Part shown: positions 4,143-59,266 of the stretch, one piece after another
Layout of the letters: every line of letters starts with the position of its first letter
Numbering within the stretch: the stretch's first letter is position 1
Source of the DNA: Heterotrichella gracilis
Lineage: Eukaryota; Sar; Xanthophyceae; Tribonematales; Xanthonemataceae
Assembly: GCA_032358255.1 (NCBI GenBank)
Contig: JAULBX010026941.1
Location: 62,001-126,000 of the forward strand
Direction of reading: 5' to 3'
Length of the DNA: 64,000 nt
Notes under the pieces: generated by a model
The model's input: the letters and a program-made list of their open reading frames with translations, nothing else
Databases searched by the model: none
What the model was told of the DNA's origin: nothing
Translations under genes and position numbers: made by a program

Positions 4143-7100
4143 TCACACCGACGGCGCGGCCGGGATGGTGCGGACCGTGGGCTTAGGGTCTTTGGGCAGG
4201 CTCTGTAGGGTTTCTATGGCCTGGGCCGCTGTGGGGCGCTCATGCGGATCCTTGGCCAGGCACCGCTGCACCAGCAGGTCGACGATCTGGGGGCACTCCT
4301 CGGGAACCCTGCGCAAGGGTGTTGGAAGGGGGCGGGTCAGCGTTTAGGGTCTAGGATTTAGGGTGGGTTGAGAAGGGTTGAGGATTGGCACAGACAGCAG
4401 CGCTGCTACAACACTACAGGCAGCCCCCCCATATTGATACAAGAATACATAGTTGCGGTCATGGTGTGGGTCCTAGCCAGGCACCGCTGCACCCAAAGTT
4501 GATGATCTGGGGGCACTCCACCCTAACGGAGGGTTTTGAAAAGGTGCAGGTCAGCGGGTGCCAACAGTGGGCCGCTCACCACCCCACTGTGTCGCGTTTA
4601 AATTTCTGCCAATTTTTCTGTGTGCCCTGCTAACGCCAGCATTCAAGCACTACACATAAGCAGCACCGGTGCGCACCCGAGCTCCCGCAGTGAGCCGCGC
4701 ATGGGCCTCTGCCCCGTGATCATCTCCCACAACAGCACCCCGCAGGAGGACATGTCAACCTTGTCTAAACACTACTATATATACTTCCCTTGCTGCTTCT
4801 GGGGTGCTTGCAACGAGCCAACAGTCAAGTCCTACCCCCTTACAAGAACCAATCAGAGCGCGATTTGGTACCATTTACCCACCTGAGGTCCCTCAGCGAG
4901 CCGCGCATGGGCCTCTGGCCCGTGATCATCTCCCACAGCAGCACCCCGTATGAGTACATGTCCACCTTGTCGTCGCACTTGCGCTCGTCAAACAGCTCGG
5001 GGGCCATGTAGCTCAGGGTGCCAAACAGGCCGGTGGTGATGGTGTTGATGGTCACCTGGGGGGGAGGGGTGTAAGGAGGGGTGGTGAGGGGAAAGGGTGG
5101 TGAGGGGAATCTGGAGGTGTCCAACAGAGGGGTGTGTGTGGTGCTTTCAGTGAGGCAAATTGGTCCTGCCAATCCAACACAGCTGCCGATCAAACTCTTG
5201 GGGACCACGATCCTCATCAAATGCAACACATACACCATAAACAACTACAACTGCCACCCAACCCCCACCCAACCACCTTGCCATCACACGACCACCCCAT
5301 ACCCCTCTCAACCACGCTCACCAGACCCCCCCCACCCATCAAACCCTCGAACACAACTCAACCAGGTCCCCACACATCTCCAACCTTTGCTGGACCCCAA
5401 ATGGCAGGCAGTTTGAACGACAGCAATTTAACCCTACCTAACCCTCTCAAAACCCTACCAAATCCCACCCACCTTGGCCAGGCCCACATCCCCGATCTTG
5501 GCTGCGCCCTGGGTTGTGAGCAGCACATTGGAGGGCTTGAGGTCAAAGTGGATGACTGAGCGCGAGTGCAGGAAGTGCAGGCCCATGGCCACGTCGCTGG
5601 CGATGCGCCGGCCCCTGCAGGGAAATAGGGTCAGCGTTAGGGTGAGCTAGGGTCAGGGATAGGGTCAGGGGTGCAGGAAGTGCAGGCCCATGGCCACCTC
5701 GCTGGCGATGCGCCGGCCCCTGCAGAGGGAAAGGGTGGGGTCAAGGGGTGCGTGGGGAAGGGTGCACAGGCGCAAGGGCGTGTTGTTGGCGATGCGCTTC
5801 CTGCTTCAAAAAGGCAAGGAAGGAGGCGGTGGTAAAGGGGATGGAGGTGCATCACAGAGACCAGTGTGATGTGGCCGCAGGTGCAAGGTTCCGGCATAGG
5901 GTTCACGTGAAGGGTTTCAACTGTAGGGTTTTCAGCACCCGGTACGTACCGCGTGTGCCAGTAGATGACCCCCTTCTCGATCCCGCGCCGCAGGTCCCCA
6001 CCCGCTCATAAACTCAGTGACCAGCATGATGAGATCGGTGGGGCAGGGTTTTCGGCATAGGGTTTACATGTAGGGTTTTCAGCACCCAGCACGTACCGCG
6101 TGTGCCAGTTGATGACCCCTTTCTCAATCCCGCGCCGCAGGTCGCCCCCACTCATAAACTCAGTGACCAGCATGATGTGGTCGGTGGGGGTAGTGCCCAC
6201 ACCCATGAACTGGACCACGTAGGGGCTCTGTAGGGTTTTCAGCAGCGCCACCTCCTTCAGGAACGCCTCCTGGGCCGTCCGGTCGGTTCGGTCCATGATC
6301 TTGACAGCCACCGGCAGCTTTTCGTGCAGCATGGCTTTGAACACCTGTGGGTGGGTGGGGTGTGGGTGGGTGGTGGTGGTGGGGCGGTGGGTGGGGGAGA
6401 GACAGGTCTGAAAGAGGCTAGCATGCCAACCTCATCCAGGCCTGAACGCCAGTCATGGTACGCTCTCCCACCGGCCTGGCCCACATGCAGTCCCTCAATC
6501 GCGCAGCTTCATGAGAAGACAATCAGACCAACCTGTGCACCTCCTCTGCGACACCACAACCACAGCCAAAGACTCCCCATCCCCACGCCCCGCCCACCCA
6601 CCTTGCCATACCCCCCCGTGCCCAGCAGCAGCTGCCTGCCCTGGTCATCGCACATCAGCTGCACATCGCTGGACTTGACCAGCCCGCTCTGCGTACCCCC
6701 CTCCATCTCCCGCAGCACTGCACCCAGCTCCGTTTCGTCCTCAATGCCCACTTTCCCGCTGGATTGCCGCGAGGAAGCTCCGTCCCAGACCTGCAATGCG
6801 AGGGGAAGTGATACAGCCATGGTGCCAAAAAGAATATATGCTGTTTCTTTTCCGCTGTGCTATTTTACATTTGACAGAACAACCCTGTACCTATCCCGTC
6901 CCAAACCGCAATGGGAGGGGAAGTAGTGGGCAAGCGATTCGATCGTGTCCCCCTCTTTGCTAACATTGCTTCCTGAACAATGCGCCTGTTCTGTTGAAAC
7001 CCAAGTCGAGTTTGCTTGATGACAAGTTGACGGCAAAAAGTTGACGACGTATTCGAACTCATCTCCAAACTTTCATTACACAAAATATCATGCAATGACG

Positions 7101-10100
7101 ACATTTAAATGAATAGTAGGATATGTTAACTATCCAACTTTTACTCGGTGATTTCCTACCTGCAGCCCCTCTCCTGCTTCGTCCCACTTGTTAGGTGGGG
7201 TGCCACCTTGGCCCATGTGCGTCTGCCTGCTCCGCTGCCGCCGAGTGTACAACAAGAACGACACCGCCGCCAGCACCACAGCCACACCCACAGCCGACGC
7301 CACTAGGACGATGATGAGGGTGGAGGTGGAGGTGGTGGTGGGGGTGGGGGGGGCGCCTGTGGGTTGGGGGGGAGTGGGGCAGGGGTTAGGGACAAGCGGG
7401 TGGAGGTGGAGAGGGTTGCAGGTCTCAACTGTGTGTGGGCTACCATCACTCTCGGCGCAAGCGCAGTGGCAAGTTGAGGCGCAGCAGGGAAGCACACACC
7501 ACAGCATGCATAATGCGCCGCAGGTTTGTGTTTGGCGCAATCTATACCAACTCCAGGACCAGCTTGCCAGCAGGGCGTGCACCCACCACAGCGGTGCAAG
7601 ACGCTGCGGGTTTCCCCTAGGGTATCCTCTAGGGTTTTGCCCAGGGGTTCCAAGGTTTCCTCCCACCTGTCGCCTACGTTTCACCCCCGATATTGAGCTT
7701 TAGAGTTTAGGGTTTCAGGGTGGCCCCTCACTTGTCGGCTGCGTGACGTTCCCCGCCTCCTGCGTGGCGTTGTACACCGCATCGTTGAGAGAACCCAGGA
7801 CCCGATAGGAGGCGGTGCGCGCGCCGCCGCCCGCCCCGGGGGCGTATATGCTGCACCCGCTTTCGCTGCATTGGGCGGGGTCAAATTGCAGCGTGGTGGC
7901 TGCCTTGGCAGTTGTGGTCGCATTGACCACGTCGTTTAAGGGGAGGGTGTAGAGCTTGAGTTGGGTGGCGGCTATGGATTGGTAGCAGGCGGGTGCTCCA
8001 CCGGGGATGTGCGTGCAGTTGCAGTGAAGGGTGAGGGAGGAGAGCGGTGGGGGGGTGGTGCCCTGCGGGGTGGTGGTGGTGGGGTGTGAGAGGCGCGGGA
8101 GGGGTGGGAGATGACAAAAAGAAGGGTGAAGAGACCCGCCGCGGTTTGAAAGAAACATGTGCAATATGGGGGCATAAGGTATGGAGAATGCTATGACTGG
8201 CCGGGGGCAAGACCCTAGGGTTCCTGTGCACATCCTTGACACCCCAGACATCACGAACCCTACAGAAACCCTACAGGAGGGGTAGGCCTGGGTGGAACCC
8301 TCACCTTTTATAAACCCTACACTACGGTCTCTACCCACACCTACACACCCCGACACTCACACCCTTGCGTACGTCCCCCATAGACACCCACATACAACCG
8401 CCCAATAGGGTCCCCATGCGCACCTGTCCGTCCAGGTCTACCACTATGGTGGGTGGTCCGTTCCAATCGTTTGCCGCAGATCTCCACACAGAGCATGGCT
8501 GGGTGGAGTCCTGGTAGCATGCTGTGAGCTCACACGACACAGTAGGGTTGTCTGCAAGAGGGGGAAAGGGGGGGAGGGGGGTGTCAGCACCAAGGGGAGG
8601 AAAAGCAAGGGAGGGGGAGCAAGGGGAAGAAAAGCTAGGGGGTGCCAGGATTAAAGGGGAGGGAAGCAAGAGGGGCGCGAGCCTAATGGGTGGGGAAAGC
8701 CAGGGGTGGAAACGCCAGGGGACGCGAGGACAAGGGGTGGGAAAGGGGCAACCAGCCCACACTCAAGCACACACACCCCACCCCACACCCCTGCTTACCT
8801 TCATAGTGCGTCCAGTTCGCCAGCCCCAGCAGCTCAAGCTCCCCATGCACCCCCCTATATTCAGGGGGGACTTGGAAGTTGCACCCCCCAACCCCCACGC
8901 AGGGCGCCAGGCCGTCCACCCCCACGTAGGAGTGGGGCACGGGGGTGTTGACGCTGTATGAGTGCACGCGCATGGCGGACATGCTGGTGGCGCACTGCTG
9001 GGGGGAGGCCTGGCAGGAGCAGTTGACGTGGATGCTGGCCATGCCTTCGGTCCAGTTCTGGAGGCGGGGGTGGAGGGGGTGAGTGGAGGGTGCTGGCCCA
9101 CCCTAGGGATTGAAGCGCTCGGATTTTGCAGACCCTAGCTGCTCGTTGTAAAGGGTCAAGCTCAAGGGTCCTTAGGGTGATTTCTGTTTGGGGCAAAGCC
9201 CTGCTCTCAGTACGGCACTCTTCAGGGTCTAGGGATTGGGGTTTAGGAACCCTCAGGGGTTCCCATGTTAATACACCATGCGCGTGCTCACTGCTTAGGG
9301 TTTAAGGTTTAGGGTTTAGGGTGCCGCACCGTGTAAGTGCTGTAGTCCAGCTTGCGGTACACAATGCGCGTGCTCACTGCTTAGGGTTAAGCTTTAGGAT
9401 TTAGGATATCGCACCGTGTTAATGCTGTAGACCAGCTTGCGGTACACCATGCGCGTGCTCACTGCTCAGGGTTTAAGCTTTAGGGTTTAGGGTGCCGCAC
9501 CGTATTAGTGCTGTAGTCCAGCTTGCGGTACACCATGCGCGAAATCACTGCTTAGGGTTTAAGCTTTAGGGTTTAGGGTGTAGGGTGTAGCTTACCGCAC
9601 CCTGTTGGTGCTGTAGTCCAGCTTGTGGTACACCATGCGCGAGGTCACTGCTTAGGGTGTAAGCTTTAGGGTTCAGGGTTCAGGGTACCGCACCCTGTTA
9701 GTGCTGTAGTCCAGCTTGCGGTACACCATGCGCGAGGTCACGTTCCACAGCACGGTCCAATTGGGCTGGATGGCGATACCTGCTGGGTCCTCAGCCCAAA
9801 TGTCGCACTGCACCTCGGTGCCTGGGCCAGGGGAGGCGGCAAAAAAACGTCAAAAAAATGGGCAGGGAAGTGTCCGGACAGGAACCATGGGGAGACTCTA
9901 AGAAGATCCTCTTTGGTGGCGCTGTAGCATGGGGAGGAAAGTTGCAAGGACAGCTTCAGACGGGAAAGAACTCCTACCTCAAACAACCCCCCCCCCTCAT
10001 GCGGACATGCACACGTTGGGCCCACCAGCCTCACCCCCCACCCCACTCACTGGCGTTGTATGGGCAGAAATCCCAGGTGTCCGTGTTCCCAAACTGGTCC

Positions 10101-13832: not shown

Positions 13833-13838
13833 TCAGAG
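13505..13838 (-). repeat. Copy of GCN1 C-terminus in its 3' flank plus GATCAGAGC repeats
   Basis: Positions 13505-13565 are a diverged direct copy of 13838-13890, the segment encoding the GCN1 end RRLSRMGAADDDDDEDL. Between the two, 13725-13838 holds about five spaced copies of GATCAGAGC. Both lie downstream of the GCN1 stop and would be in its 3'UTR. Confidence 0.75.
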
Positions 13839-16800
13839 GTCTTCATCGTCATCGTCGTCCGCTGCACCCATGCGCGACAGGCGCCGCAGGTAGGGCTCGG
13901 TCAGCAGGTTGCGCACCATGGGCCCCGCGCCAGGGCTGGCCAAGAACTCGTGCACCACATCCAGGCCCGCGTCCATCTGTAATAACCTAACTAGGGTTCG
14001 CTCTGCAGCCAGGCGCGTGGGGCCCTGCGCGTGCTGCATGACCGCGCACAGGGAGGGGGCGAGGGAGGGATAGTGGGGGGCGAGGGAGGGGGCGTGGCGC
14101 CGGGAGAGGTGCTTCACCACCTGGAGGGGAGGGGGGAGAAGGGGGTCCATAGGGTGGGTGGGTGGATGGGTGGGTGTCTGTGTGTGTGTGTGGGGGGGGG
14201 GGCTCATAAGAAGCAAATGGCATGTAGCTTTGTGCGCACATGATGCTGATGGCCAGGAATCGCTGTGCCCGAGAGTTGCACATGGGTTCCTGTTTAGGGT
14301 TTAGGGGTTTAGGGTTCCATACAGATGCGACGGGGTTTGTGAACCGTCAACCCTTCAAACAACTTCAAAAGATTTTAAAAGATTGATTCACCCACCAGCA
14401 GCGCCTCACGCTGCACCTCCGAGCTCTGGTCGCTGCCCAGGAGCGCCATCAGCACAGGCACAAGGGGGGAAAGCGCGGCACTTTCCTCCCCAGCCGCCAG
14501 CTCGGCGGCGATCAGGCGTCCCGCCGCACGCGCCGCCGCCACCCGCACCGGCACCCGGTCGTCCCGCGAGCAGCGGATGATTGCGTCGGTGAACTGCTGG
14601 TGCAGGCCTAGGGCGGGGATCCTGCAGGGGGTTGGGGGTTGGCGCGCGGGGTTGGCGGGAGAGAAGCAAAAATTGTGGTTTGGGACTGTCAAGGAGAAAG
14701 GCGCCTGGAAGCCAAGCAAGGATGCCATCTGGTGCGTGTGGCTAGCATCGGTAAGACCCCATCAGACTTAATATTTGGGGGCCTTTTGCGGATGGCCAAG
14801 TCCCATGCCCAATTCCCCTGCTCCACCTTATGCGCCCAAGCAAAAGAAAAGAAGACAAAACGCTCTTGCCCCCGGCACCACCACGAGCTTTGCCACCCCC
14901 ACCCACCCAACCCCCACACCCACCTGTGCGCCGCCGAAGACGCCAGCGCCGCCAGGGTGAGCGCATGCGCGTGCCGCTCGCTGGCGCTGGTGGGCTGCGG
15001 CTGCGCCAGCGGCCCCCGCAGCAGCAGCGCCTTAAGGTCTGCCTCGGGGCACAGTGCAGAGTATGTGCCCAGGCAGGCGGCGCAGGCCACCCGGGAGGCG
15101 TCGTCCTCGCCTGCGGGTGGGTGGGGGTGGGGTGGCAGGGGAGGTGGTGTGTGTGAGGGTGTGTGTGTGTGTGCACAGGTGTGTATGGCGGGAGATGAGG
15201 CGGCCCAGGGCGTGGTGGGCACCTGCTCCTGGCATGAGAATCGGTGAGTGTGTGTGTACGGTATGTGCCCACCCACCTCCCGTGCATAGCCAACTGCCCG
15301 GGGGTACCTTCAGTGGGCACCTGTTCACAAAATGGACCCACATGCGCCACACATGTGAGGTTGACACACCCACACCACACCCACCCGCCCCTTCCCCTAC
15401 CCCACCCACCAAGGCTGGGCATCAGGTCCCGCAGCCCCGCCCCCACCCTCGCCAGCGCCTCCGCCCCCACCCGCTCCCCACTAGCAGCCATCAGGCCAGC
15501 CAGTGCGGTGAGCATGGCCTCGCGCACCCCCGGCTCCGCACCCACAGCCCCAGTCACTAGGTCTAGTGCCAGGGGGTCTAGTCGGGGAGTGAGGCGGGTG
15601 AGTTCCCCTAGGTTCTCGGCAGCGCTCTGGCGCACCTGGCGGGACTGCGTGGGGTGGAGGAGTGGGGGATAAGGGGAGGGGGGGAGGGGTTTGGGCTAGA
15701 GGTGGGGCGTGGGTTGTAAAGCAGAGGTGCGATGTTTCTGGGGTTAGGGGTTTTTGGAATTAGATGCCGGTGGTGGGAGACTCTTGCAACTAAAGGTTGG
15801 GTGTGTGTGCATCATCACGTAATACTTTATAATGCAGAAGGGTCACAATGCACACCTGACACATAAACCCCGAGCAAACCCTGACAGCCGGCACTCGCAC
15901 CCCACTCCACAAACCCTAGCCCAAAAAAACTAGCCAAACCCTCACCGTGGCGTCGTTCAGGCACTTGACAAACGTGGTCTGCAGCTGCGGCACAAAGGGC
16001 TTGAGCCCCGCCCCGGCCTTGCGGATCAAAACCCCTAGGGTTTGCAGGATGGCGGCCTTGATGGTTGGCTGGAAGCGGTCGCCCACGATGCGGATGAGCG
16101 GCCCCGTGATTTGCACCACGAAGGGTTTTAGGGTTTCCTCCGAGGTCGCGTCCACCAGCTCGCCCAGGCCCTCGGCGGCCAGCTCACGCAGCTCGGCTGA
16201 GCTGCCCTGCAAGGGAGACAAAAGGAAGGGTCGTCAAGGGGAAGTAGGGGTGATACAATACAGGATACTGGAAGCTAGCTCACGCAGCTCGGCTGCGCTG
16301 CCCTACAAGGGGGATAATGGAAGGGCGTGTCAAGGGGATGGAAAGTGTCAAAGTGGGGTAACAATTACATGGGGTGCGGTAGGCTTTTCATTCACAACCC
16401 CACACCCACGCACCCCTCCTGCGACACTCCAGTTGAAGACGGGCAGCACCAGAGCCTTGGCAAGGCGCAGTCTCGCACAGGCAACACCGCGCCTACCCCT
16501 TCACCCACACACACACCCCTCCTGCAGCACCGCCCCACACGCACACCCTACACCACCCCAACCCTCCGCACCTGCAGCACCCCCTGCAGGTAGATGGGCA
16601 GCAGCGGCGCCAGCGCCTTGGGCAGGCACAGCCCCGCCACCCGCACAGGCGGGGGCCCGCGCTTGCGCCGCTCCCTCTCGCGCGCTGTGGCCACCCCCTC
16701 GCGCACCACCCGGCAGTAGCCTGGCTGCTGCTCCTTGGGTATGGTGGCGGCCAGGGCTGCGGCTGCGGCCCAGAGTGCCGCCAAGGTGGGGTGGTCTGCG

Positions 16801-19800
16801 TCTTCGGCAAAGAGCTGGAGCAGCGCCTGCGGGTGGGCGGTGGGGGTGGGGGGTGATGGTTTAATGAGGGGCCGCCCCACCATGGCCGAACTATAAAAAT
16901 CTTGCAAAAGCTGCGAAACAGCACAATGAAATCCGCCGCCCCCCACCGCAGAGAGAACTCCTCCACTGCCCAGCCCAGGTATTGTCATGATTTCCATCCT
17001 TGCAGGGGCAGTTTATTGGAGGCACGTGGGTGGCGCAAGCATGCATGCAGGGGCCCCAGGGCTAATGCTGATAATAATAATGATAATAATAACGGAGAAT
17101 GATAATAATAGGAAATATCGTACCGTGAGCAGCGTGGGCACGTGCTCCTGGAAGTCCATCTTTGCGGATTTGCAGAAAACCACGATGACGTCGGCCGCAC
17201 CCCGCCGCCGGGAGGGCTCCTCCAATGCCTTGCCCAGCTCGTTGAGCAAGGGGTACACCCCGTCCTCTTGAATTGATGTGGCCACCTTGCCTGCCGCGTC
17301 GCGGGCTGCCAGGGCCAGGGCCGTGGGCTCGGGGGCGTCTGCCTGGGAGGCTTGGGTGAGGAGGGTGGGGAGGATGAAGGGCAGGTGCGGGTTGATGGAG
17401 GCGCCTGCGGTGGGGGTTGGGGATGGGGGTGGGCAGGTGGATGAAGGGGGGTTTCCCATCCGGGTATTCCCAAAATGGAGAACTGAGCAAATAGACAACT
17501 GTGGCCAATCCTTGGCCAAACCCTGGCTAAACCTTGGCCAAGGCTTTAGCCAGGATTTGGCCAAGTCCGGTAAGTTTGCTGCCAAAGCCCAAAATTTACT
17601 GTACTCGTGGCCGTGGCCAAACCCTGGCTAAACCCTGGCCAAACCTCTAGCCAGGATTTGGCCGAGTCCAGTAAAATTGTTGCCAAACCCCCGAATTACT
17701 GTACCCTTGGCTACACCCTGGCCAAACCCCGGCCAAACCCTGGCTAGAGTATTAGCCAAGCGTTGGCCGAGTACGGTAGATTTGCTGCCAAACCCCGCAA
17801 CTTACTGTCCTCATGGCCAATCCTTGGCTAAACCCCTGACCAAATCCTGGCCGAACCCTGGCCAAACCCTGGCTAACAAGTTACAACCCCAGCAGGGCCA
17901 GCACCCCCACTTCCCGCAACCCACCTGCCACCTCCGCCAGCGCCCCCAGCGCGCGCAGATTGGTGGCCTGCAGGGGCGGCTTCACCAGCTTTGGCACCAT
18001 GCCAGCCAGGGTGCCGGGGCGCACCGACAGGATCACCCGCAGCCCCTCCAGTGCCTGGCCGGCGGTGGCGGGCCGCTCCAGCCCCGCCAGCAGCGCGGGG
18101 ATGATTTGGTCCACGGCGGAGCCCGCGCCCCCCTTGAAGAGGACGGAGAAGGCGGCGCCGGCGGCCTGCGGGGGGTGGTGGGGTTGGGTGGGATGTGGTG
18201 GTGTTGGGTGTGGCGGTGGTGTGTGTGATGCGTTGGGTGCATGGGTCCATGGGCTCGGGGCCGTCAGGTCTTTACATGCACTGTCACGTGCACCGCCGCA
18301 TGCACCGCCAGAATACCTAGGGTCTCCATAAATGGACCCTAGGGTTTCACCCCCCTCCCACCTGGCGCACAGCCAGGTCAACATCCCCGACCGCCACCTG
18401 CACCCTCCCCCTCCGGCCCCCCCACATCTAGAGTCTTCCTAGGGTTTCCCTAGGCTTTTCCTATATTTCCCCCCTCGCACCTGGCGCACAGCCGGGTCAT
18501 CATCCGTCAGCGCCGCCTGCACCGCCGGCAGCAAATCCCCCAAGTGCTCCGCCAGCTGCTGTCTGGAGATGTTATCCAGCACCTCCTTCAAACCCATGCA
18601 CACCCCCTGGCGCCGCGAGGCCTCGGGGCTTGACATGCCGTTCTTGAGGATGGGGATGATCTGTGCAAGCACGCGCTCCCCCATCTTGCGCACCAGCTCG
18701 CCCAGGCAGCGGCCGCCCATCTGGCGCCGGTCCTCGCCTGCACGGGTGGGTGAGGTGAGGGTGAGTAGGTCATATTGTTAAGAGTGATGGGGGGAGGGCT
18801 TTGTTACATTGTAACCCAAATTTGGCAAGGCAGATTGTGAGTGGTTGCGCCTGGTTGAATTAAAATGCATAATGCCCTGGATGCGGTGTTTTAACCCAAA
18901 AACGGCCCACCGCATTTACAAAGTTACCCTACACCTTCCCCACAAAAAACCCCACCTGTGCTGGCCAGCGACTCAATGACCTGGCCCATGAGCGCCGCCA
19001 GCACCTCGCCTAGCTTGCGCGGCGTGTTGGTCACCAGGCATACAGGGACACCCCGCACGTGCAATGGCTACAAACCCTAAACCCTAACCCTGGACCCTAA
19101 AGGCCCCAGCCCTGCACCACGCACCTGTGCTGGCCAGCGACTCAATGACCTGGCCCATGAGCGAGGCCAGCACCTCGCCCAGCGTGCGCGGCGTGTTGGT
19201 CACCAGGCTCTTCCATACGTGCAGCGACGCGGTGCGCACCCCGTAGGCGCTGTCGCTGCGCGCCATGTACACGCGTGCAAGCACCTCGCAGCGCCGCGCG
19301 TAGCCCAGCGCGGCCACCAGCGCGTGGCCGTGGGCCTCGGTGGATGCGCCCTCGTCGTCCGACCCGCCGTCGATCTGGACCTTGCCGCTGGTGCCGGCGA
19401 CCTGCGGGAGTGGTAGGGCTTTGGTAGGGTTTTTGGATAGGCTTGTGTAGGGTTTGTGAAGGGTTTGTGAAGGGTTTATGCAGGGTTTGTGCAGGGTTTT
19501 GGCAAGCGTAAAGAAACACGTTACCCCCCACCCCACACAAGCATCATCCAGCCTCTAGCCTTGACAGAAGTTCCCCTGACAACAAAAACCTATCCCCCAC
19601 CACCCCACCACCCCCACCACCACCCACCTTGAACAGCAGGTCACCCAGCAGCTCCACCGAGGCCTGCCTGATGCGCCAGTTGTCGTTCACGATGCCATCC
19701 TCAACCGCGGGCAGCAGCAGGTGCAGGGCAGTAGCAGCATACTGCTCCACAAACACCCTCCCTGCTGCCAGGGCGGTATCGCGCACCCCCTCGGACTCGT

Positions 19801-46955: not shown

Positions 46956-49853
46956 ATGTCCATCGAGGCCCTCACCAGCAAGCTTTACCAAAATGGCTTT
47001 AAGGCGGCTATGTCCTTCATCGAAAAGGACATGGTCCCTGACGCCGTGATCAGGATGGGGATCCGCAACCTGCTCACAAAGCGAAAAAACGAGGTGGGCT
47101 GCGTCAACCCCCTCCAGCATGCGCCTAGGCCTGTGGTGCAGCTTACCTTGGCCTTGCCTTGGAGGTTTGTAAGCGCTGTCAGTGATATGTGCCCACAGAG
47201 TTATTGGTGAACCCTGGACAGGGTCTACCTCTGACCGTCAAGTTTCTGCGCACAGTTAACCCCATGTGCCTCCCCCACTTGTGCCTTACCTTAGGCAGCT
47301 ATTAGGGCAGTGTGCCGCACAGCCCTTACAAACCCCTGTGGAGGGTACCGGCACCTCTGACCATTTGTCTATCATCATTTCCAGAGCAACGTGGACGCTG
47401 AGGAATTCCAGGCGCGCGTGCAAGCATTTGTTGACGAGCTGAAGACCATGCCAGTGGCTGTGGAGACCGACGCAGCCAACGAGCAGCACTATGAGGTATG
47501 AATTATATTGTGTATACCGTATAATAAAAGGAATAGTAATGACTACCCGCTGCGGCTCAAAAAGCATAGGCAATTCGCTGGAACAGGCACTTGAGGTATA
47601 AGGCTGCACTCACAAAGGAATCACCTGAACATGCACGAGGCTGGTATCCAGATGTGGCTTGTTCCCTAACCCCACCTCTGGGACCCTGCAGGTCCCCACA
47701 GAGTACTTTTTGCTTGTCCTGGGCCAGCACCTCAAGTATAGCTCATGCCTCTACCCCACGCCTACAACCACGCTGGACGAGGCGGAGGCCGCTATGCTAG
47801 GTAGGGCCCCTCCTGAAGGTTTTCATCTTTGTTAACAAACTACTGAGGGTTGAAGGTTGTGAGGGCTAGGCATATGGGGGTTGCGTTCTTCAACATACTG
47901 GATATGCCGCAACATGCGTGCAGAGCTGGGCACTCACACCAACATAATACCCTAGACGTCTACATGAAACCCTAGGCAAAACCCTTGTCTGCCCGCAGAG
48001 CTCTACTGCGAGCGCGCCCAGCTGACCGACGGCCAATCCATACTGGAGCTGGGATGTGGCTGGGGATCCCTGAGCCTCTTTTTGGCCGCAAAATACCCCA
48101 AGAGCAGCATTACGGCGGTATCGAATTCGCGCACCCAGCGGGAGTTCATCATGGGCCAGGCGGGGGAGCGGGGGATCACGAATTTGAATGTGATCACTGA
48201 CAACATGGTGACGTTCAAGGCGCCCGGGAGCTATGATCGGGTGATGAGCATAGAGATGTTTGAGCACATGAAGAATTACAAGGTGGGCCGGCCCAACCCT
48301 AGAAAAACCCTAGAAAACCCTAGCAGTGTGATGAGCATAGAGCTGTTTGTGCACATGAAGAACTACAAGGTGTGGGGGGGTGCACCAGGAGCAACACCCT
48401 AGAAAACCCTAGCAGTGCACGACGATGCTACCTCCAAATTCACCCTGGTTCTGTTTGACTGGCGGCAATGGGGCCGTGGTGGGCCTTGCATAGAATTTGT
48501 CAAGTACAGGGCACCACCACCCTTCTTGGTGGGGTAATAGGTCTTTCCCCTCCATTGTTCAAGGAAATCCTTTCCCTGTGCAGCAAACCCAATGTTGATC
48601 TCATGTATCCATTTCCTTCCCCTGCGCAGGAGCTCCTTCGTCGCATATCCACCTGGCTAAACCCCGGGGGCATGCTCTTTGTGCACATCTTTGTGACGCG
48701 TAACCTGCCGTACCACTTTGAGGTGAGGGAAGGGGGGGGGGGAGAAAACGCATCGCACCACACTGCTCCGCATTGCATGGCATCGTGCCAGATTACAGCC
48801 CACAGCCTACAACCCAACAGTCAATCACTCCACACCCTATATGACATACACCACCCACATCATGTCACCTGCCCATATTCCATCGTGCGCACCACCTTCA
48901 TCATCACCTGCGACCTGTGTTGCCATGCCCCTATAATAACCTAACATAGGGTTTTGCCTTTCCTTCAGTACCACGGGGAGGATGACTGGATGACCAAATA
49001 CTTCTTCTCTGGGGGCACCATGCCGTCAGAGGACCTCCTGCACTATTTCCAAGAGGACCTGGCGCTGCAGAAGCAATGGTGCGCTCACCCTAAACCCTAA
49101 ACCCCAACACAGTGGTGCGCACAAGGGCCTGACAAAACCCTAGCCTTGCGCTGAGTAAACCCTACACCCATATTGCGCTGTTGCAGAAGGGTTTTACTAG
49201 TAAGTGAGGTGCCTGCGTCACTCCCGGCGCCAGGAGCGCAACATACCGCCCCTGTGTGCAGGTATGTGAACGGCTGCCACTACTCGCGCACCCTGGAAGA
49301 CTGGCTGGCGCGCCAGGACAGCGAACGGGCCAAGGTGATGCCAATCATGGAGGTAAGGCATGGACCCTAGAAACCCCTGGAACCCTTATGAAAACCCTAG
49401 AAAATGTCATGGTGAACGGGCCAAGGTCATGCCAATCATGGAGGTAAGGCTTGGACCCTAGAAACCCTTGGGACACCCCTGGTGAATCCCTAGAGTATGT
49501 CATGGTGAACTGTCAGTGTCTTATCCCCCTGCTCCCGCATAAACCCTACCAAACCCCTACACAAACCCTAACCCTCCCACCCCTGCCTCTCCACCGGCAG
49601 GCCACCTATTGCCCCGGCCAAAACCTCAATTCACTGTGGTGGGTATACTGGCGCCTACAAACCCTACAAGACCCCTACCACAAACCCTGCTAACCCTGCT
49701 CCCTCCCCTGCGCAGGCCACCTACGGCGCCGACCAAGGCCTCAAGTGGTGGGTGTACTGGCGCCTGTTCTACCTGTCATGCTCAGAGCTGTTCCGGTACC
49801 AAGGGGGGGACACATGGGGGGTGGGCCACTACTTGTTCAAGAAGAAGGAGTGA
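46956..49853 (+). CDS. SAM-dependent methyltransferase, coclaurine N-methyltransferase/CFA-synthase-like
   Basis: Eight exons give 357 codons with the stop: 46956-47093, 47385-47495, 47692-47800, 47999-48282, 48630-48722, 48969-49078, 49262-49352 and 49716-49853. The order is a helical N-terminus; [15 protein letters not shown] and KYSSCLYP, which are family signatures; the SAM-binding motif [25 protein letters not shown]; then [25 protein letters not shown] and the C-terminal end [12 protein letters not shown]. Length and motifs match plant and algal relatives of coclaurine N-methyltransferase, which share a fold with cyclopropane-fatty-acid synthases. It should transfer a methyl group from SAM to an unknown amine or lipid. 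A TGTAA near 49933 could be the polyadenylation signal. Three exon edges are duplicated in its introns, one of them in frame. Confidence 0.95.
48303..48372 (+). repeat. In-frame duplicate of a methyltransferase exon end
   Basis: It copies the exon end 48240-48282 ([14 protein letters not shown] becomes [14 protein letters not shown]) and its GTG donor. It lies 87 bases downstream, in the same frame, with no stop between. The spacer is ACCCTAGAAAA repeated. Confidence 0.95.
49395..49452 (+). repeat. Duplicate of methyltransferase exon 49262-49352 3' edge
   Basis: GAACGGGCCAAGGTxATGCC and ATCATGGAGGTAAGGC are repeated 91 bases downstream, including the GTAAGG donor. This displacement is not a multiple of three. 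Confidence 0.95.
49598..49668 (+). repeat. Duplicate of the last methyltransferase exon's 5' edge
   Basis: The acceptor and first ~55 bases of exon 49716-49853 (AGGCCACCTA, CTCAA.T, GTGGTGGGT.TACTGGCGCC) are copied about 115 bases upstream and diverged. AAACCCTACAA motifs follow. Confidence 0.9.
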
Positions 49854-50649: not shown

Positions 50650-53600
50650 CTACAGCACCCTGGGCAGCCGCGCAAAGCTCATCACGGGGGCGGTGCTCTC
50701 AAAGGCGACCGCGGTGCGGAAGTGCGCCTCCGCATCCTTCCCCCTGCCCTGCTCCTTGGCCACAAGACCCAGGTAGTGCCACCCCTCGCCCCGCTCGGGT
50801 CCTGACCGCAAACCCTCGGATAGGTACTTCTCAGCAAGCACCAGGTTCTGGGCGCCCCCCCGGGCGTAGTAAGCCGCACCTAAACAAGTGAGGCCACAAT
50901 AAAACAACCTTTTCTGTTTCCAGGGGTGGGAAAGGATGGAGTGGTTCTGATTGAAGCCAGGTTCGGAATAAAAATATTTACAACATGGGTTGCGAGCAAA
51001 GCAGAAACAATGATGCTTAAGAACAAGGGGGAGGCGGCTTGGGACATAACCAGGGCAGGAACAAACAAAGCAACTGTAATAAGAACTAGTGACGACTCTG
51101 ATAACTATGCGCACCTAACTGTATGGCTGCCTGTGGGAATCGGCAGTCCAGGGCGAGAGCGGTTTGGAAGGAGTCAAAAGCGCCCTCCAGGTTGCCCTGC
51201 GCCTGTGGGGTGCAGAGGACTTGAGAATTAGCTGCTGCAGGGCATTTTGCAAAAAGGAGGGCAGGAGCATTTACAGGCGTGTGTGTAGCAGCAGCCATCC
51301 CCACATATGCATCCCCCTCCCAAACCACCTTGCGCATTAGTGGCCGGCTGCAGGACCCACATGGCCCCCATACCTCCCCACATGGACACCCAAAACTAAT
51401 CCACAGCCCCCCCACAGCCTCCAACCCCACCTTGTGCATCATGCCTGTTGCATAGTGCAGGTGCGGCCGCCAGGGCGCCCTCTTGCCCGCCTCCTTTAGG
51501 CAGGTGCGTGCATCATCCCACTGGGACACACATACAAAGCCATGCGCAAGCTCCAGCCACAGCTGCGGGGGGGAGATGGGGGGAGGTGAAGGAGGAGTGT
51601 GTGTGTGTGGGGGGGGGATTGCGCTGGGGTTGGGGATAGGATGGTGTGTGCTGGGGATGGGATTGTGGGATGGTCACCCAGGTCATGGGCGCTGGGAAAT
51701 TGGATGGTGTGTGCCTGGCAATGGGTTGGTGTGTGAACAGCCGATCTGGATTTGGGGACCAGTGGTGTGCTCTAGTATAGCAAAACAAATTCATGCTGTG
51801 CAATATTTGCATATACAGCTGCACGAGGTGTGTCATCCCCCTGATATGTCTCCCCTTGAAGTAACAGGGGACAACCCCTGTGCATCAATTATGTCACCCC
51901 ACCCCCGCCACCTACATCGCTCTCATCCATAGACTTCCCCTGATCCCTGCCACCGCCACCGCCACCCCCCAGCGCCTCAGCCTGCATGTGCGCCATGAGA
52001 GACGCCAGGCTCCTCAGCGCGACACCTGGCGCACCCAGGGCCATGTGCAGCCGGGCCTGCAAGGGGGGGGGGTTAGGGTCAAGGGTTCAGGGTTACGGTT
52101 CTTGTTCGAGAAAGTTGTGTGCCAACATGTCGGGGCCATGTCAGCATGCACCATTGCCCTCGTCCCCCAACCACACCAAGAGTACCCATTGGCTCTGCAT
52201 CACCTCCTCAATCCCTTCCATACACCAAGCGGACTCCCCCGTCACTGCGGGGGGGGGGGGGGGGGCGGGGGGGGGGGGGGGGNNNNNNNNNNCGGCCCCC
52301 CCCCCCCCCCCCACACCCCACCCACCCCACCTGTATGGCCATCAACAGCGGCCGGTGCCGCGGCTCCACCTCGCCCCCCGCCCCCTCGCACACCTCCAGC
52401 GCGGCCCCGCACCGCTGCTGCCCAGACACCACCAGCGCCAGCAGCAGCCATGAGGGGGAGTGGCTGTGGGCGGAGGCCTCGAGGGCGGCGCGGGTGGTGG
52501 CAAGGGCGGAACGCAGCTGGCGGGCCTCCGCCTGGAAAGAGGTGGGTTAGGGTTTACCGTTGGAGATTACGTATTAAGGTAGGGGTTTAGGGTTTAGGGT
52601 TCTGGTGGCCAGGGCGGAACGGAGTTGGCGGGCCTCCGCCTGAAAAGGGGGGGAGGCTAGGGTTTAGGGAGTGGGGTTTAGGGTTCTAGGGTTGTGGTGG
52701 CCAGGGCGGAACGGAGCTGGCGGGCCTCCGCCTGAATGGGGAGGGTAGGGTTTAGGGGTTGCGGTTTAGGGTTTAGGGTTCTGGCGGCCAGGGCGGAACG
52801 CAGCTGGCGGGCCTCCGCCTGACAAGGGGGAAATCGGGGTTCAGGGTATTGGTGCACCACCGTAATTGGTTGCATGTAGAGCAAGCGATCATCTGAATGC
52901 ACAGCAAGTGATCTTGAATCTACAACTTATGACAATCCACTTGATTGTGTGCTAAGGTATGCTACAGGGACAAGGTCCCACCTGCATCAGCGCGCAGTTG
53001 TATGCCGCCGCCACGTCATGCGGGTCCAACTCCACTGCCTGCTCCAATACCCGTAGGGCTTCCTCGTTGTGTGCCTGGCGTTCCTGAACGGGTGAGGGGT
53101 TGCTTGTGTGTGGGGGAGGGGGTTTGGAGGGGGCTGAAAGGTAGCACATGGATCCAAACTGAAAATATATGCACCGCTACCAACGACTTATGTTGTGTCA
53201 ACAGCTTGATTTGCAGCGAACCTACACTTCTCAACCCTAAGCGCCCTATACCTGCAGCGGTGGCGCAGGGTGTGCCGCCGCCAGTGCCCCCAGGCTTGCC
53301 CCCAGTGCAGTGAGCGCCCTGGGCAACAGGTGGCTGTCTGTGGATCGACAGCTATCAACTGCAGACCTACAGGGCGAGGGGGGCCGGGCGTCACTGCCAG
53401 GGGCAAGATGCTCCGAAGTGCTCTTTTTTACTCCGTTACATGTACATATAAAGTAGAACTTCTGGTTTTATCGAGGATTCTCATGAATGTAAATGATAGG
53501 TGTGCATGGGTGGGGGCAGCAGGTGGCTCTCTGTGGATCGACAGCTGTCAACTGCAGACCTGGGGGGCAGGAGGAGGGAGGGGAGCCACATCAGCATGGG

Positions 53601-55207
53601 GGGAGAGGCACATGGGTGGTGGGCATGTGCGAGGGTGGGTAGTGCGCGTTGCCAGGTCGCACGCGTATGCAGCTGCACAATGGTCTGCCAGGCCTGTGAT
53701 CAATGCTGTTGGTGCCATCGACAGAGGGCCTCCAGGGTAATTGGCACGGCAGCAACTGCATGGGCCAATGTTGGGGTGCCACACCTAGCAAGCGTACCGC
53801 CGAGGTGAGTGCGGGAGCATCCCAGTGCAAGCATGCGCGCAACAACACTACACCCGAAACCCCAACCCCGGTCCCTCACCGTGCAACCTCCACCCCTGTG
53901 TGAGCGTGGGGCATACGAGTCCAGGCATGCCCGCCCAGACCCTAAACCCTACACCCTACACCCCAGTCCCTCACCGTGCAACCTCCACCGCCTGGGTGAG
54001 CGTGGTCGCGTCCGAGTGCAGGCATGCGCGCACAAACAGCAGCTGGTTTTTCACGCTGGCGTCCACCTTGAGCAGGGGGTGGAACACAAGCTGGGCGCGG
54101 GGGGAGTCGCCGGCAGCCATCCAGGCCTGCGCATGGGGTGGTAGGGTCTCTGTGTGTGGGGCACGTGGTGCAATACAAATGTAACAGGAGAGCCCTAAAC
54201 CCTAAACAGGTGTAGTGCAGCTCAGATAGAGGTTTTCAACCCTAGGAAAGGGTGTGCAAAGGGGCTTGCCTGCTGCAAGGAGGGTGTAATCATGCTGGGA
54301 TGAAGGTTTAAAATGGTGGTGGAGCATGCAGTACCCACCTGAGCCTGTGCGCTCCACTCCTCCAGCTGTGTGCGCTCCGATATGTTGGCCTGCTGTAACG
54401 TCACCGCCATGGTCTGGTATTGACCCCCAGTTGCCAGCAGGTAGCACAGGCCCCAGAATAATTGGGGGTCATTTGGAAACTCCTGTGCAAGGGTGCGGAA
54501 ATCACAGTTTCAGGTTGGGGAGGGTAGTGATGACCCACAATGTTGAGATCACTCACAGGGTTGTGCCAGAGCCAGGCCTTTATAGTGTGTAGGGTTTATC
54601 GGGGCCCAAGCCTGTGTAGGGTTTAGGTTAGGGATTATCCCGACCCCAGCCCTGTGTAGTATGAGGGTCTCAGGGGCCAGGACTTGCCCAAATGGGCAAG
54701 TGCAGTTGCCAGGCGAGTTGTGACTGTCCAGGGACATGCAGGCATGCTGCCATGCCTTCCCCAACTGGAAGTGCCTACGAGGAACGATCAGCTGCAAACA
54801 AAAGGCTCACCTCTGGGAAGGTCCTGGCAGCAAGCAGCAAGCACAATGCAGCTTCGGTGCCTGACTGCTGCGCTTGAACCACCTGCAGAGGGTGGCACAG
54901 ATGGGGCGATGCACATGCCACTCAAAGAAAGCCATGCCTCATGATGTTGCACAATGCCGGTTCATAAACGGCATGATCACGGGTAAATTTAGTTGGTAAA
55001 ATATTAACTCCGACTTGCTGCACCAGGGTATATTTCAAAGCACACCTTTCCGCCAGTTGGTGCGCCAAGGGGGTTGAATGCAAGCAGCGTGCCAGTTGCT
55101 TTCAGGCTGCTGAGTTTGCTTCTACTTGGGTTGGTAATATCTGAACGCAGTTTATCGAGTCTAGAACGTAAGCTGGCGCTGTAATCCATGGAATGGCGTT
55201 CCTCCAT
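50650..55207 (-). CDS. TPR protein, NPG1/TTC7-like
   Basis: Likely exons are 54812-54883, 54339-54485, ~53974-54128, ~53249-53371, ~52979-53084, 52331-52533, ~51917-52060, 51431-51563, 51115-51202 and 50650-50878. A possible first exon, 55040-55207 (MEERHSMDYSASLRSRLDKL), is the weakest part. TPR-like helices include HNEEALRVLEQAVELDPHDVAAAYNCALM, LWLELAHGFV..SQWDDARTCLKEA, HLHYATGMM, GNLEGAFDSFQTALALD and GWHYLGLVAKEQGR. The C-terminus (STAPVMSFARLPRVL) resembles NPG1 and TTC7 proteins. In other eukaryotes TTC7 scaffolds the PI4-kinase IIIalpha complex at the plasma membrane, and NPG1 binds calmodulin and pectate-lyase-like proteins. The exact role here is inferred. The gene is shorter than the family norm (500-odd codons found), some exons may be missing near 53.4-53.9 kb, and an assembly gap lies in one intron. 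Confidence 0.7.
52246..52312. other. Assembly gap (10 N) between a G run and a C run
   Basis: N bases occupy 52283-52292. About 35 bases, nearly all G, precede them and about 15 C follow. The gap lies in an intron of the TPR gene next to exon 52331-52533. The switch from G to C across the gap suggests a sequencing or joining artefact at a homopolymer or an unresolved inverted repeat. Confidence 0.95.
52495..52822 (-). repeat. Four copies of a TPR-gene acceptor and exon start
   Basis: The acceptor and first ~35 bases of exon 52331-52533 (encoding AEARQLRSALAT) recur at about 52600-52642, 52695-52735 and 52782-52822, each with CAG before GCGGAGGCCCGCCAGCT. TTTAGGG motifs fill the spacers. Confidence 0.93.
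53500..53580 (-). repeat. Copy of the TPR-gene segment at 53320-53375
   Basis: CTGTGGATCGACAGCT and CAACTGCAGACCT blocks are shared in order with 53338-53372, including the acceptor. The copy is about 180 bases upstream in the gene's sense. Confidence 0.88.
53808..53942 (-). repeat. Two decayed copies of TPR exon ~53974-54128 3' edge
   Basis: The pattern GTGAGxGxGG...GxCCAGTGCAxGCATGCxCGC, with CCGTGCAACCTCCACC in one copy, recurs at ~53815-53850 and ~53880-53935 and matches 53975-54030. CCCTAAACCCTACACC lies between the last copy and the exon. Confidence 0.8.
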
Positions 55208-56514: not shown

Positions 56515-58879
56515 ATGCTTCATCAAGTGATCTGGGTGTCTTTCACCCTCTACACGGTGATAACATTCGCCGTAGGTGCTACAGGATATGACTTTGCCTC
56601 CGAGTATGCAGACGCCGCAGGTAGGTGGCATGCTGCAAACTTGAAACCCAGTTTAGTAACTCTGGTGCTGCGGTATCTACTGTGGTAGCCAGTACGCTGT
56701 TCAAGATAACCACCAAATGGTATGCACACCAGCCATTGCACTAGCCTATCTCCTCCTGGTGACAGCTGGCACTACCTTTTGCACCCCATCACCGACACTC
56801 TCTGCACCCCTTGATAGCAACCCACTGTGCACCCACCCCTTGCCCCTTGCCCAAACAAGCCAAGGGCCGCGTCCACCACCGCCTGAACGCCACAGTACCG
56901 TCATGACCCCCCACCCACAAAACCCCCCACCCCCTGCAGATGCGCCTCCCACCGAATCCAACAAGCTGAGCTTCAAGATCCACCGACAAGCCATCCAGGG
57001 CCTCGATGGCCGCAACCACGCCCTCCCCAAGGGTATCAACGGGGTGGTCAACCTCATTTCCCACGAATGGCTGCAGATGAATGCCCTGCTGATGGCGCCA
57101 ACAGACCCCACCACGAGTGCCCCGCAGGCCTCAACAGTGGTCCTCCTGGCGGTAGTCATACACACCACCAAGTTTGCTGTCGAGGCCACTCCCAAGGGGA
57201 CCCTCAGAAGTAAGTGGATGCGCTTGGACTGGCGGTCCAGGTGTATGGATTTAGGGTTGATGGTTGAGGGTTTGGATGCACTGGCACAAGCGCTCCAGTT
57301 GTTTGGGTGTATGGTGTAAACGGGGTTGGGGTTTAAAAGCACTGGGACTAGCGCTCCTGGACCTTAGGGTTGGGGTTGAAGGTTTGGGCCACCCTCAGAA
57401 GCAGTGCGCTAGTGTCGATGTTGGCGGCGGCTAGGGTGTTTCAGGGGGAGGGGTGGCACTGCACGCATGCTTGTGTTCACCGCCATGGTCTGCTTGGTCA
57501 TCACCATGCTGCATGCCTGTGGACATCGCCATGGTATGCAAGTGTGGTCTCATCATGGCCGTAGTCATTTGGAGCAAGGCGAGGGTCACTAGGCCGTGGC
57601 CTAGTGGGTTCAGCAACCGCCCTGACCTCCTCTCTCACCTGCAGTCTACCTGAATGACGAGGACATCACGCCTTTCCTCATGTTTGGCCACGGGCTGCGC
57701 CACAACAAGGGGGTGCGGCTCACCATCGTGCTGCACGCAGCAAAAAAACGGATGGGCGAGTCGGTCGACTTCTTCACGCGGGACGTGCAGGTGAGGATGA
57801 GGGGTAGGGTATAAGACTTCGAGTTTAGGCTTATGTTTTGTGTTTGGGATGTATGCTTGCTTCTCGAAGGTTAGGGGTTAGGTGTCGATGGTAGGGGATG
57901 CTGCTGCAGGGTTTAGGGTTTTGCAGGGTCTATGGCCTAAACCCTACCCGACCTCTTCACCCCATGTGTGCAGCTGTCTATGGAGGGGGGCCAGGGTCTG
58001 CAGGGGCAGGTGGATGTGAGGCTGCCGGCGACCAACATGACAGGGGGGGTACAGGGGCTGGTGGGGCATGAGTGGGCGGCATCCATCGATGGCGCGCAGG
58101 ATGTGGCCAAGGTAGGCAGGGGAGGGGCTGGGAGCCAAATACCCTAAACCCGTACGGATCATGTCTGTGATTCACAAGCTCAACCTCCATGGCGCCTCCT
58201 TGCTCTATTATCGACTACCATGGCCCCTTGTCCTCTTTTCATGCGCACCACGCGCTCGGATACAGAGCCGGCTGTTGCAGACACACAGCTGGTGCAATAC
58301 TTAATTGTGCCCAACGGCCCCATGTGGCACCTCTATCCTGCCAAACAATCTGCTCAAATGCCTAAAGAAATTGGGGTTGGGACCGACCGGGACCCCAACC
58401 CCCGTCCAGCCACTCATGTTATTCACATGCTGATTCTTGCAGGGCTCCAAGGCCGCAGAACCGGCTGTTCCCATGGACCCCCAGCTGGTGCAGCGCCTCA
58501 TGGTGCCCGATGGCACTTTGAGCACGGGGCTTCCCCACAACCCGTACCACAATGCCCTCCTTGTGAAAGGCCAGTTTTCTGCCCTTTTCTCCCTGAAGCA
58601 TGCTCACCTCATGCTGATTCCCGCTTCCCGCAGGGCGCCAAGGGTATGGAGCCGGATGTGCCCATGGACCCCCAGCTGGTACAGCGCCTCATGGTGCCCG
58701 ACGGCACCTTTGGCACTGGCTTCCCCACCAACCGCTACAACGACACCCTCCTGAAGGAGGTGGACGATGAGAGGGCCAGGGGGCGCACCATAGCCCTGAG
58801 GCCCATGGCCAAGGGGGCGAGGGCGTCGATACACAAGAAGGGGAGGCCCAAGCGGGCGAGGCAGGGCGTCACAGGGTAG
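56515..58879 (+). CDS. Unrecognised protein with secretory-type N-terminus
   Basis: Predicted exons are 56515-56620, 56940-57209, 57643-57789, 57973-58109, 58441 to about 58560 (uncertain) and 58634-58879. The start MLHQVIWVSFTLYTVITF is a hydrophobic signal peptide or anchor. It is followed by IHRQAIQGLDGRNHALPKGI, NLISHEWLQMNALL, VYLNDEDITPFLMFGHGL, VRLTIVLHAAKKRMGES, VDVRLPATNMTGGVQG, and a tail rich in Lys/Arg (HKKGRPKRARQ). I do not recognise the family. The last exon segment (MDPQLVQRLMVPDGT.GTGFP.N.YN) is present in two good copies and one decayed copy. The steady splice sites and neighbour-like codon use argue for a real gene. Cell location is inferred only from the N-terminus, and the basic tail could equally be nuclear or membrane-proximal. 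Confidence 0.65.
58254..58750 (+). repeat. Three copies of a C-terminal exon segment
   Basis: Copies at 58254-58330 (decayed), 58441-58560 and 58634-58750 share GACCCCCAGCTGGT, CAGCGCCTCATGGTGCCCGA and AACCCxTACxAC-like ends. The second and third each have a good acceptor preceded by GCTGATTC. Confidence 0.9.
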
Positions 58880-59266
58880 GGGAGGGAAGGGAGGGGGAGG
58901 GCAGAGGGGGGACTCAAGCAAGGGTGGGGGGGAAGATACATGAGAGCGTGAGGGGGTGATGCACAGGGAAGGGAGGATCAAACGTGCGTCCCAGGGAGCG
59001 GGTGGTCGGGGCTAAGGTGGAGAGGGCATAGCTGGTGGGGATGGCTGGCCGGCACCGTCGAGCAGTGGAGCGTAGGCACTGTAATGGCGTGCAGCCCTGA
59101 AGGGATGCCGCCATTACGAGCAGAGTGCAATGGTGGCGCTACTAGGCAGTGGAGTGCGCTTGCGGCAGCATGTTGCCATCGCCAACAGGCAGCGGAGTGC
59201 AATGAGGACCGCTAGTGGCAACGCATGCGCCAAGCACCTGCGCCAGCAATATGGGCGGATCCCGCA

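Follow-up and report, generated by a model that had tools for sequence, protein, structure and literature searches.

How does an intron grow, and from what sequence? The question is raised by a 64 000-nucleotide stretch of the genome of the xanthophycean alga Heterotrichella gracilis (positions 62001-126000 of contig C443, GenBank JAULBX010026941.1; the whole stretch is referred to here as the window), in which the edges of predicted exons, splice sites included, recur a short distance inside the adjoining introns. The usual order is an exon edge with its splice site, a telomere-like tract and then a copy of the exon edge with its splice site. A copy of the adjacent exon edge was found in 63 of 374 predicted introns in a 304 kb sample, and exon-edge copying is a habit of this genome.

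The genome comprises 68.5 Mb in 903 contigs. The window was extended by 200 kb in five blocks on three contigs and then by 40 kb on two further contigs, giving a total of 304 kb (the window plus 240 kb; 0.44% of the genome) from six contigs, all of them long ones. Genes were modelled with an ab initio semi-Markov gene finder whose training set was the window plus the first five blocks (341 introns, median length 291 nucleotides (nt), with a clear GT/AG consensus), and all intron and edge counts given below rest on these ab initio models; the two blocks of the extra 40 kb (C13a and C35a) were decoded without retraining and stand outside the training set. In the edge test, 60 nt of exon plus 6 nt of intron were aligned locally against 350 nt on the intron side and a score of at least 20 was required; the copy lies on the intron side in every pair because this was the side searched. 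Since copied edges were sometimes modelled as small exons, edges were tested ignoring the intron-side annotation and pairs counted from both sides were removed, which reduced 82 events to 69 unique pairs (40 donor and 29 acceptor), of which 23 lie within the window.

In the first set of introns to be tested, donor-edge copies were present in 41 of 332 introns, compared with 0 of 3320 decoy introns and 0 of 332 antisense searches, and acceptor-edge copies were present in 36 of 332, compared with one of 3320 decoys and one of 332 antisense searches. Control anchors in intron cores found partners in 12/294 and 11/294 cases and those in exon cores in 8/332. The blocks outside the training set yielded six donor events and one acceptor event among 44 introns. 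Broken down by block, introns with a copy numbered 4/34 (C2a), 13/47 (C2b), 10/49 (C46a), 1/42 (C46b), 9/56 (C57a), 20/102 (window), 4/20 (C13a) and 2/24 (C35a). Near repeats were direct in 27 cases and inverted in one within the window, and direct in 112 and inverted in five over the window and first five blocks (expectation value E ≤ 0.1). The exon part of the copy had a median length of 55 nt (5th-95th percentile 28-108 nt, from an earlier pair list) and the copy-to-copy spacing was 56 and 76-319 nt. Among the 69 pairs the identity of the anchors was at least 95% in 15 and at least 90% in 33, with a minimum of 71%. A preliminary description of the window had spoken of a genome habit with copies ranging from near-identical to decayed; the excess over decoys in the first set, the events in the blocks outside the training set and this spread of identities agree with both statements. 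Extrapolated from 387 introns in 304 kb and the fraction 63/374, there would be about 15 000 copies genome-wide if the sample is representative.

The same description had the gaps between copies often filled by telomere-type motifs, and this was confirmed. An exact telomere 7-mer (a rotation or complement of TTTAGGG) was present in 51 of 69 spacers, compared with 721 of 3718 stretches of matched length taken next to splice sites in copy-free introns. Of the short spacers (20-62 nt), 24/34 were at least 60% telomere-like, compared with 238/1983 control stretches; when a tract was called at 8 of 10 matches, 58 of the 69 spacers contained one. Tracts started no more than 12 nt from the splice site in 32 of these 58 pairs, compared with 69 of 249 copy-free introns with a tract, and came within less than 4 nt of the exon-internal edge of the copy in 22 of the 58. 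Telomere-likeness at the intron-side junction amounted to 31% for donors, against 5% at equal distance in copy-free introns (p = 8e-7), and to 17% against 3% for acceptors (p = 4e-5). Tract density was 55/kb in donor spacers and 44/kb in acceptor spacers, compared with 25/kb and 21/kb beyond the copy, these densities including pairs counted from both sides.

A single telomere orientation was seen in each of the 51 spacers that hold an exact 7-mer, and the 30 with at least two separate tracts were all uniform (30/30, with 10.2 expected). Two-ended healing with opposite telomere strands was rejected, both strands occurring in 0/51 tract-bearing spacers. The G strand was read in 19 and the C strand in 12 donor spacers, and in four and 16 acceptor spacers, respectively (Fisher p = 0.005); the acceptor bias would fit splicing, because AG occurs in the G strand and a C strand can double as a pyrimidine tract. 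Donors rich in G did not stand out clearly as preferred telomerase primers (GGG at +3 to +9 in 21/46 event donors and in 113/268 other donors).

Telomere words are not confined to the spacers. TTTAGGG has 14 rotations and complements; 13 of them are within the top 16 7-mers enriched in introns relative to intergenic DNA and the 14th ranks 30th; the most enriched intron 7-mer is a telomere word. Their density is 12.9/kb in introns and 1.0/kb in exons; intergenic DNA has 3.6/kb up to 300 nt from a predicted exon and 1.2-1.3/kb farther out, so that introns exceed exon-distant intergenic DNA about ten times. They peak beside splice sites, copy-free introns included. The association of copies with telomere motifs that had been suggested was upheld: a telomere 7-mer occurs in 48 of 63 introns with a local repeat and in 136 of 278 without one (p = 8e-5). 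Across the eight blocks the relation between copies and telomere density was positive and not significant (rho 0.64, p = 0.09). The words show no preference for first introns (7.7 telomere 7-mers/kb compared with 4.8-26.4/kb in later introns), and a motif gradient from the gene start was looked for in the sample and not seen. C-strand words dominate next to acceptors and both strands occur next to donors, the former being consistent with the AG of the G strand being barred there. One contig, C70, starts with perfect TAAACCC repeats (positions 3-72), as would a TTTAGGG-type telomere; the TAAACCC 21-mer has 702 occurrences in the genome, some of them deep inside contigs (on C2 at 246 kb of 457 kb). 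Block C46b (C46:300001-340000) has 45 ordinary introns, normal codon use and almost no copies; its telomere-word density is the lowest, 3.0/kb compared with 9.3-19.2/kb in the other blocks.

Within the window, at least 25 places in six genes had been claimed; the copies do fall in six predicted genes, and 23 pairs were counted. Two of these belong to one three-copy array and two are at the score limit of 20 (44484-44532 and 58819-58866). Twelve places had been cited as examples. A real repeat exists at all 12 and 11 pass the edge test, their positions having been given only approximately (4655/4895 is 4674/4880, 48303/48240 is 48328/48241 and 49395/49345 is 49414/49323). Eleven of the 12 are in, or within about 20 nt of, the list of direct repeats of the window; 5656/5556 is absent from that list and was found by the edge test, with 98% identity. 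The place failing the edge test, 32590/32797, corresponds to a real repeat (32461-32661/32655-32874), both copies of which are mostly modelled as exon. The best named relatives of the GCN1-like protein, in the region searched, are from Myrmecia bisecta (71%) and Elliptochloris (69%), and those of the methyltransferase-like protein from Coccomyxa viridis (68%) and Tetraselmis (67%). The proteins suggest, by these similarities, a green alga of the chlorophytes, and no rbcL match was found in the assembly. An Rfam scan of the window gave no match. The features are as follows (percentages are identities).

4465-4519, minus strand: copy of acceptor edge 4243-4299 (85%).
4674-4765, minus strand: copy of donor edge 4880-4971 of a kinase-like gene (89%, exon part 89 nt).
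5621-5670, minus strand: spacer between 5566-5620 and 5671-5725, degenerate telomere-like, of CCCTGACCCTATCCCTGACCCTAG type in gene orientation.
5671-5725, minus strand: copy of acceptor edge 5566-5620 (98%, exon part 49 nt).
5933-6043, minus strand: copy of donor edge 6080-6189 (92%), with a AAACCCTA-type spacer.
9272-9741, minus strand: tandem array after exon edge 9694, about 86 bp units, 3.6 copies, with telomere-like spacers.
9595-9648, minus strand: closest of several copies of donor edge 9688-9741 (96%), within the array 9272-9741.
16274-16308, minus strand: copy of acceptor edge 16178-16212 of the GCN1-like gene (91%).
18953-19039, minus strand: copy of donor edge 19122-19208 (95%), with a GGGTTTAGGGTTTAGGG-type tract in the spacer.
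20521-20591, minus strand: distal of two copies of donor edge 20840-20910 (99%).
Near 20648-20739, minus strand: middle copy of donor edge 20840-20910, with a telomere-like minisatellite between the copies.
22001-22081, minus strand: copy of donor edge 22157-22237 (91%).
22992-23058, minus strand: copy of acceptor edge 22892-22958 (88%).
26169-26206, minus strand: copy of donor edge 26251-26291 (92%), with a C-strand-like spacer.
26575-26681, minus strand: copy of donor edge 26816-26919 (88%).
30030-30091, minus strand: copy of donor edge 30147-30208 (79%).
31895-31962, minus strand: copy of donor edge 32090-32157 (99% as modelled).
44630-44692, minus strand: weak copy of acceptor edge 44473-44532 (73%, score at the limit).
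48289-48327, plus strand: spacer before the copy 48328-48372, with AACCCTAGAAA repeats.
48328-48372, plus strand: copy of donor edge 48241-48285 of the methyltransferase-like gene (93%).
49414-49449, plus strand: copy of donor edge 49323-49358 (97%).
49597-49656, plus strand: copy of acceptor edge 49712-49765 (87%), with a CCCTA-rich spacer at 49657-49709.
52694-52734, minus strand: copy of acceptor edge 52494-52534 (95%), with a AACCCTAGAACCCTAAACCCC-type spacer.
53874-53940, minus strand: copy of donor edge 53969-54037 (88%), with a GGGTGTAGGGTTTAGGG-type spacer.
58439-58502, plus strand: copy of acceptor edge 58630-58693 (84%), also modelled as a small exon.
58943-58996, plus strand: weak copy of donor edge 58812-58866 (72%, score at the limit).

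The array at 9272-9741 is a multi-copy form of the edge-copy pattern. The similarity of 31895-31962 continues past the modelled edge as far as a better donor (AAAAG/GTAGGG, with the exon ending at 32080), where it stops. A scaffold gap lies near 52250-52282 beside a G run, and its 10 N are the only N bases of the window. Coding regions labelled LRR-like by eye are repeated in both orientations within the window (747-2301 and 40829-42180), and a predicted exon of an LRR-like gene contains a tandem duplication of 135 bp (45 codons) at 34858-35123.

Mismatches between exon edge and copy fell on codon positions 1, 2 and 3 at rates of 0.104, 0.094 and 0.176 in the 69 pairs (0.117, 0.103 and 0.193 in the first set), a pattern that fits neutrality of the copy and constraint on an exon drifting at third positions; the copies decay as neutral DNA would. 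The splice dinucleotides are retained about as often as expected from flanking identity (GT in 30/33 copies, 26.4 expected; AG in 21/27, 20.9 expected) and so give no clear signal of selective upkeep or removal of the inner sites. Introns with a copy had a median length of 458 nt (n = 55, merged), compared with 273 nt for copy-free introns (n = 254; p = 2e-11); unmerged, the contrast was just 310 versus 287 nt because copies modelled as exons split their introns. Of the earlier suggestion that introns grow here by break repair with local templating, the longer introns and the tie of telomere-like DNA to the copies are borne out, and break repair with local duplication would fit the architecture.

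Which of the two similar sites is used was examined in the GCN1-like gene. Its exons were joined leaving out the copies, the resulting protein was compared with 12 homologs and any gap within six residues of a junction was scored. Four of the seven donor-copy junctions were without a gap (19125, 20846 and 22163 in 12 homologs each and 30124 in ten) and a fifth, 26256, had a gap in one of 12; the remaining two, 26822 (gap in 7/12) and 32080 (8/9), fall in a variable region or at the end of the model and are non-deciding. Of the acceptor-copy junctions, 22953 had a gap in 0/12 homologs and 16206 in 4/12. The other internal junctions of the gene were without a gap in 12 of 23 cases. Judged from this comparison of predicted proteins, the outer splice site is the one that serves at several, cleanly testable junctions.

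Use of the inner site is predicted to cause a frameshift or an added stop in 66 of the 69 pairs. The notion that the copies supply alternative splice sites is unsupported, given this count and the loss of sequence from the copies as from neutral DNA. Average log-odds under our own gene model were 4.1 for inner and 6.1 for outer donors and 5.0 and 7.3 for inner and outer acceptors, and weaker inner sites would help to explain the choice of the outer site in old pairs. The inner score equalled or exceeded the outer in 16 of 33 donor pairs and 8 of 27 acceptor pairs, so that strength alone does not settle the choice. The decoy potential is real, as many inner sites stay strong: 17/33 donors and 18/27 acceptors score higher than the bottom quarter of the predicted real sites. 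Choice of the outer donor and of the outer acceptor alike is what pairing of sites across the exon (exon definition) would predict.

The reading favoured here, to which we assign a probability of about 0.5, is that telomeric DNA is added at staggered breaks on splice junctions and that fill-in duplicates the exon edge. Each case would be the scar of one mutation. A staggered break would open across the splice junction; one of the 3' ends would receive telomeric DNA from telomerase, or capture of a telomeric fragment would supply it; fill-in and end joining would follow and duplicate whatever lay between the nicks, some 30-110 nt of exon together with the splice site. The outer site would stay with the exon and the copy would land in the intron, leaving the protein unchanged and lengthening the intron by mostly about 80-250 nt. 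Afterwards the copy would decay neutrally and the tract change fast, with the spliceosome presumably pairing sites across the exon. The scheme is built on the observed architecture, the excess at edges, the single orientation, the neutral-like decay, the longer introns and the outer-site use at several GCN1-like junctions. In this genome, contig C626 has a match to the telomerase RNA-binding domain, and Ku matches lie on C771 and on C380. For the chemistry there are precedents in mammals, namely target duplication at telomeric insertions (PMC7215372, PMC2246262) and the tandem duplications left by CST/Pol-alpha fill-in (PMC8355091).

Several results weigh against this scheme. Eleven of the 69 pairs lack a tract at 8 of 10 matches; random positions in donor-event introns are also telomere-like (17%, compared with 31% at the junction), tracts are also dense beyond the copy, and the position of the tract in the spacer follows no simple rule of G strand to the left and C strand to the right. 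Even in pairs whose exon copies are 95-99% identical the tracts are degenerate, and hence do not look like fresh, pure telomeric arrays. In several pairs (C2b 21152; window 9272-9741 and 20506-20910) tract sequence is common to both copies, as if the tract had come first and been duplicated with the edge. The favoured scheme also gives no reason why splice junctions are targeted. An order of events in which telomere-like minisatellites beside splice sites come first and provoke tandem duplications (about 77-250 bp) whose breakpoint on the intron side falls in the tract, the unit thereby including the exon edge, is the main alternative, tentative but credible. It would explain why edges are struck and intergenic DNA is spared, as well as the degeneracy and strand order of the tracts, and it agrees with breakpoints that adjoin tracts, with homologous tracts in both copies of some pairs and with the tracts that copy-free introns also bear near splice sites (9.9 telomere 7-mers/kb where an intron has no local repeat, compared with about 1.2/kb in intergenic DNA away from exons). 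Duplication of a tract-bearing unit, however, predicts equal tract density in the spacer and beyond the copy, and the spacers are about twice as dense; the similarity ends some 3-10 nt past the splice site in several young pairs, and the origin of the tracts is left unexplained. Tract-first duplication and staggered-break insertion may be stages of one process.

Targeting could be apparent only. If tandem duplications arose everywhere, they might be visible just at edges, where one copy is a constrained exon, those within exons being lethal; edge pairs would remain visible about twice as long, decaying along one lineage and not two. The neutral-like decay of the copies agrees with this, and the intron-core control anchors do find partners, some of which are copies of edges. 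The distribution of repeats makes the idea improbable nonetheless. Of 71 repeat clusters, 54 are at exon edges, six exon-exon, five intron-internal, two intergenic and four other; for each edge cluster, geometry leads one to expect 0.67 intron-internal ones (about 36 in all) and, since intergenic positions (88 kb) are about as numerous as edge positions, an edge-like number of intergenic ones. The expectation has to be halved, since a copy whose partner is under no constraint is lost from view about twice as quickly, and the shortfall remains. Tiled anchors with a near partner numbered 134 of 1836 at edges, 339 of 5980 in intron cores, 191 of 3724 in exon cores and 53 of 4896 in intergenic DNA, the intron-core and exon-core counts including partners of edge copies and coding repeats. 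Nor does decay explain the contrast in telomere 7-mers between introns and intergenic DNA more than 300 nt from exons. A mobile element akin to introners, or a telomere-linked retroelement, making long target-site duplications at exon edges would account for an insert flanked by direct duplications; we regard it as very unlikely, because beyond the telomere motif no element sequence common to different loci was seen in the window (eight distant repeat pairs at E ≤ 1e-4, three of which join the LRR-like coding regions, with no intron family recognised), the window has one inverted repeat pair, and the duplications measure about 30-110 bp, compared with 3-9 bp in the introners described in excerpts from PMC9860276. 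Least probable of all is an assembly artefact from collapsed or concatenated alleles. The window does contain a scaffold gap, but the copies diverge like neutral DNA and unlike alleles of coding exons, are mostly set apart by telomere-like tracts and are present on all six sampled contigs.

No published account of edge copies combined with telomere-like spacers was among the matches listed in open-access PMC text; the related systems are compared here from excerpts of the papers cited. Mammalian interstitial telomeric insertions sometimes show a direct target duplication, explained by staggered breaks, at 6/130 rodent, 4/25 primate and 3/66 horse loci, and their location looks random, 31% of the human ones being intronic (PMC2246262, PMC7215372). 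Like them, the cases described here have an internal telomere-type array (51/69 spacers) and a flanking target duplication (69 pairs); unlike them, they are tied to splice junctions, with telomere 7-mers at 12.9/kb in introns and 1.2-1.3/kb in distant intergenic DNA, which does not look random. In mammalian cells, CST/Pol-alpha fill-in at nuclease-induced breaks with 3' overhangs leads to small tandem duplications (PMC8355091). Small tandem duplications, fill-in and telomere-linked machinery (proposed here) are shared with that case, for which the excerpts describe no telomeric insert or link to splice sites. Intron gain by tandem duplication, including a case in potato (PMC4974935), duplicates splice signals and makes new introns; splice signals are duplicated here too, but it is existing introns that grow. 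Intron birth by tandem duplication was tried as an explanation for the present genome and rejected, with in-register donor/acceptor copies in 6/320 introns compared with 24/3186 decoys at score 10; at score 12 (3/320 compared with 4/3186) a few single cases are possible. Arabidopsis telo boxes are enriched in 5' untranslated regions and not in introns (150.7/Mb compared with 155.2/Mb genome-wide), and telomerase action at breaks has been proposed as the origin of plant telo boxes (PMC3022908). These are likewise telomere unit motifs within genes; here, unlike there, the words are enriched in introns, and first introns are not favoured. Introners change introns on a genome scale and their target duplications can include splice signals (PMC9860276); the present pairs differ in that no common element was seen in the window, the duplications are long and introns grow and are not created.

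More broadly, splice-junction-specific, telomere-linked repair may act on thousands of introns and make them grow continually, with the inner copies, often as strong as the outer sites, passed over. We consider this wider proposal doubtful; under it, continuing junction-targeted growth would be tolerated because the spliceosome picks its sites across the exon. The lengthening of introns and the source of the added sequence have mostly been guessed from decayed remains. About one intron in six here still shows the growth step, with source, insert and target visible in copies ranging from near-identical to about 70% identity and with telomeric DNA tied to splice junctions. The paired similar sites, of which the outer one appears to serve at cleanly testable junctions, are a natural test of splice-site choice, and the rates of intron growth could be measured directly in strains.

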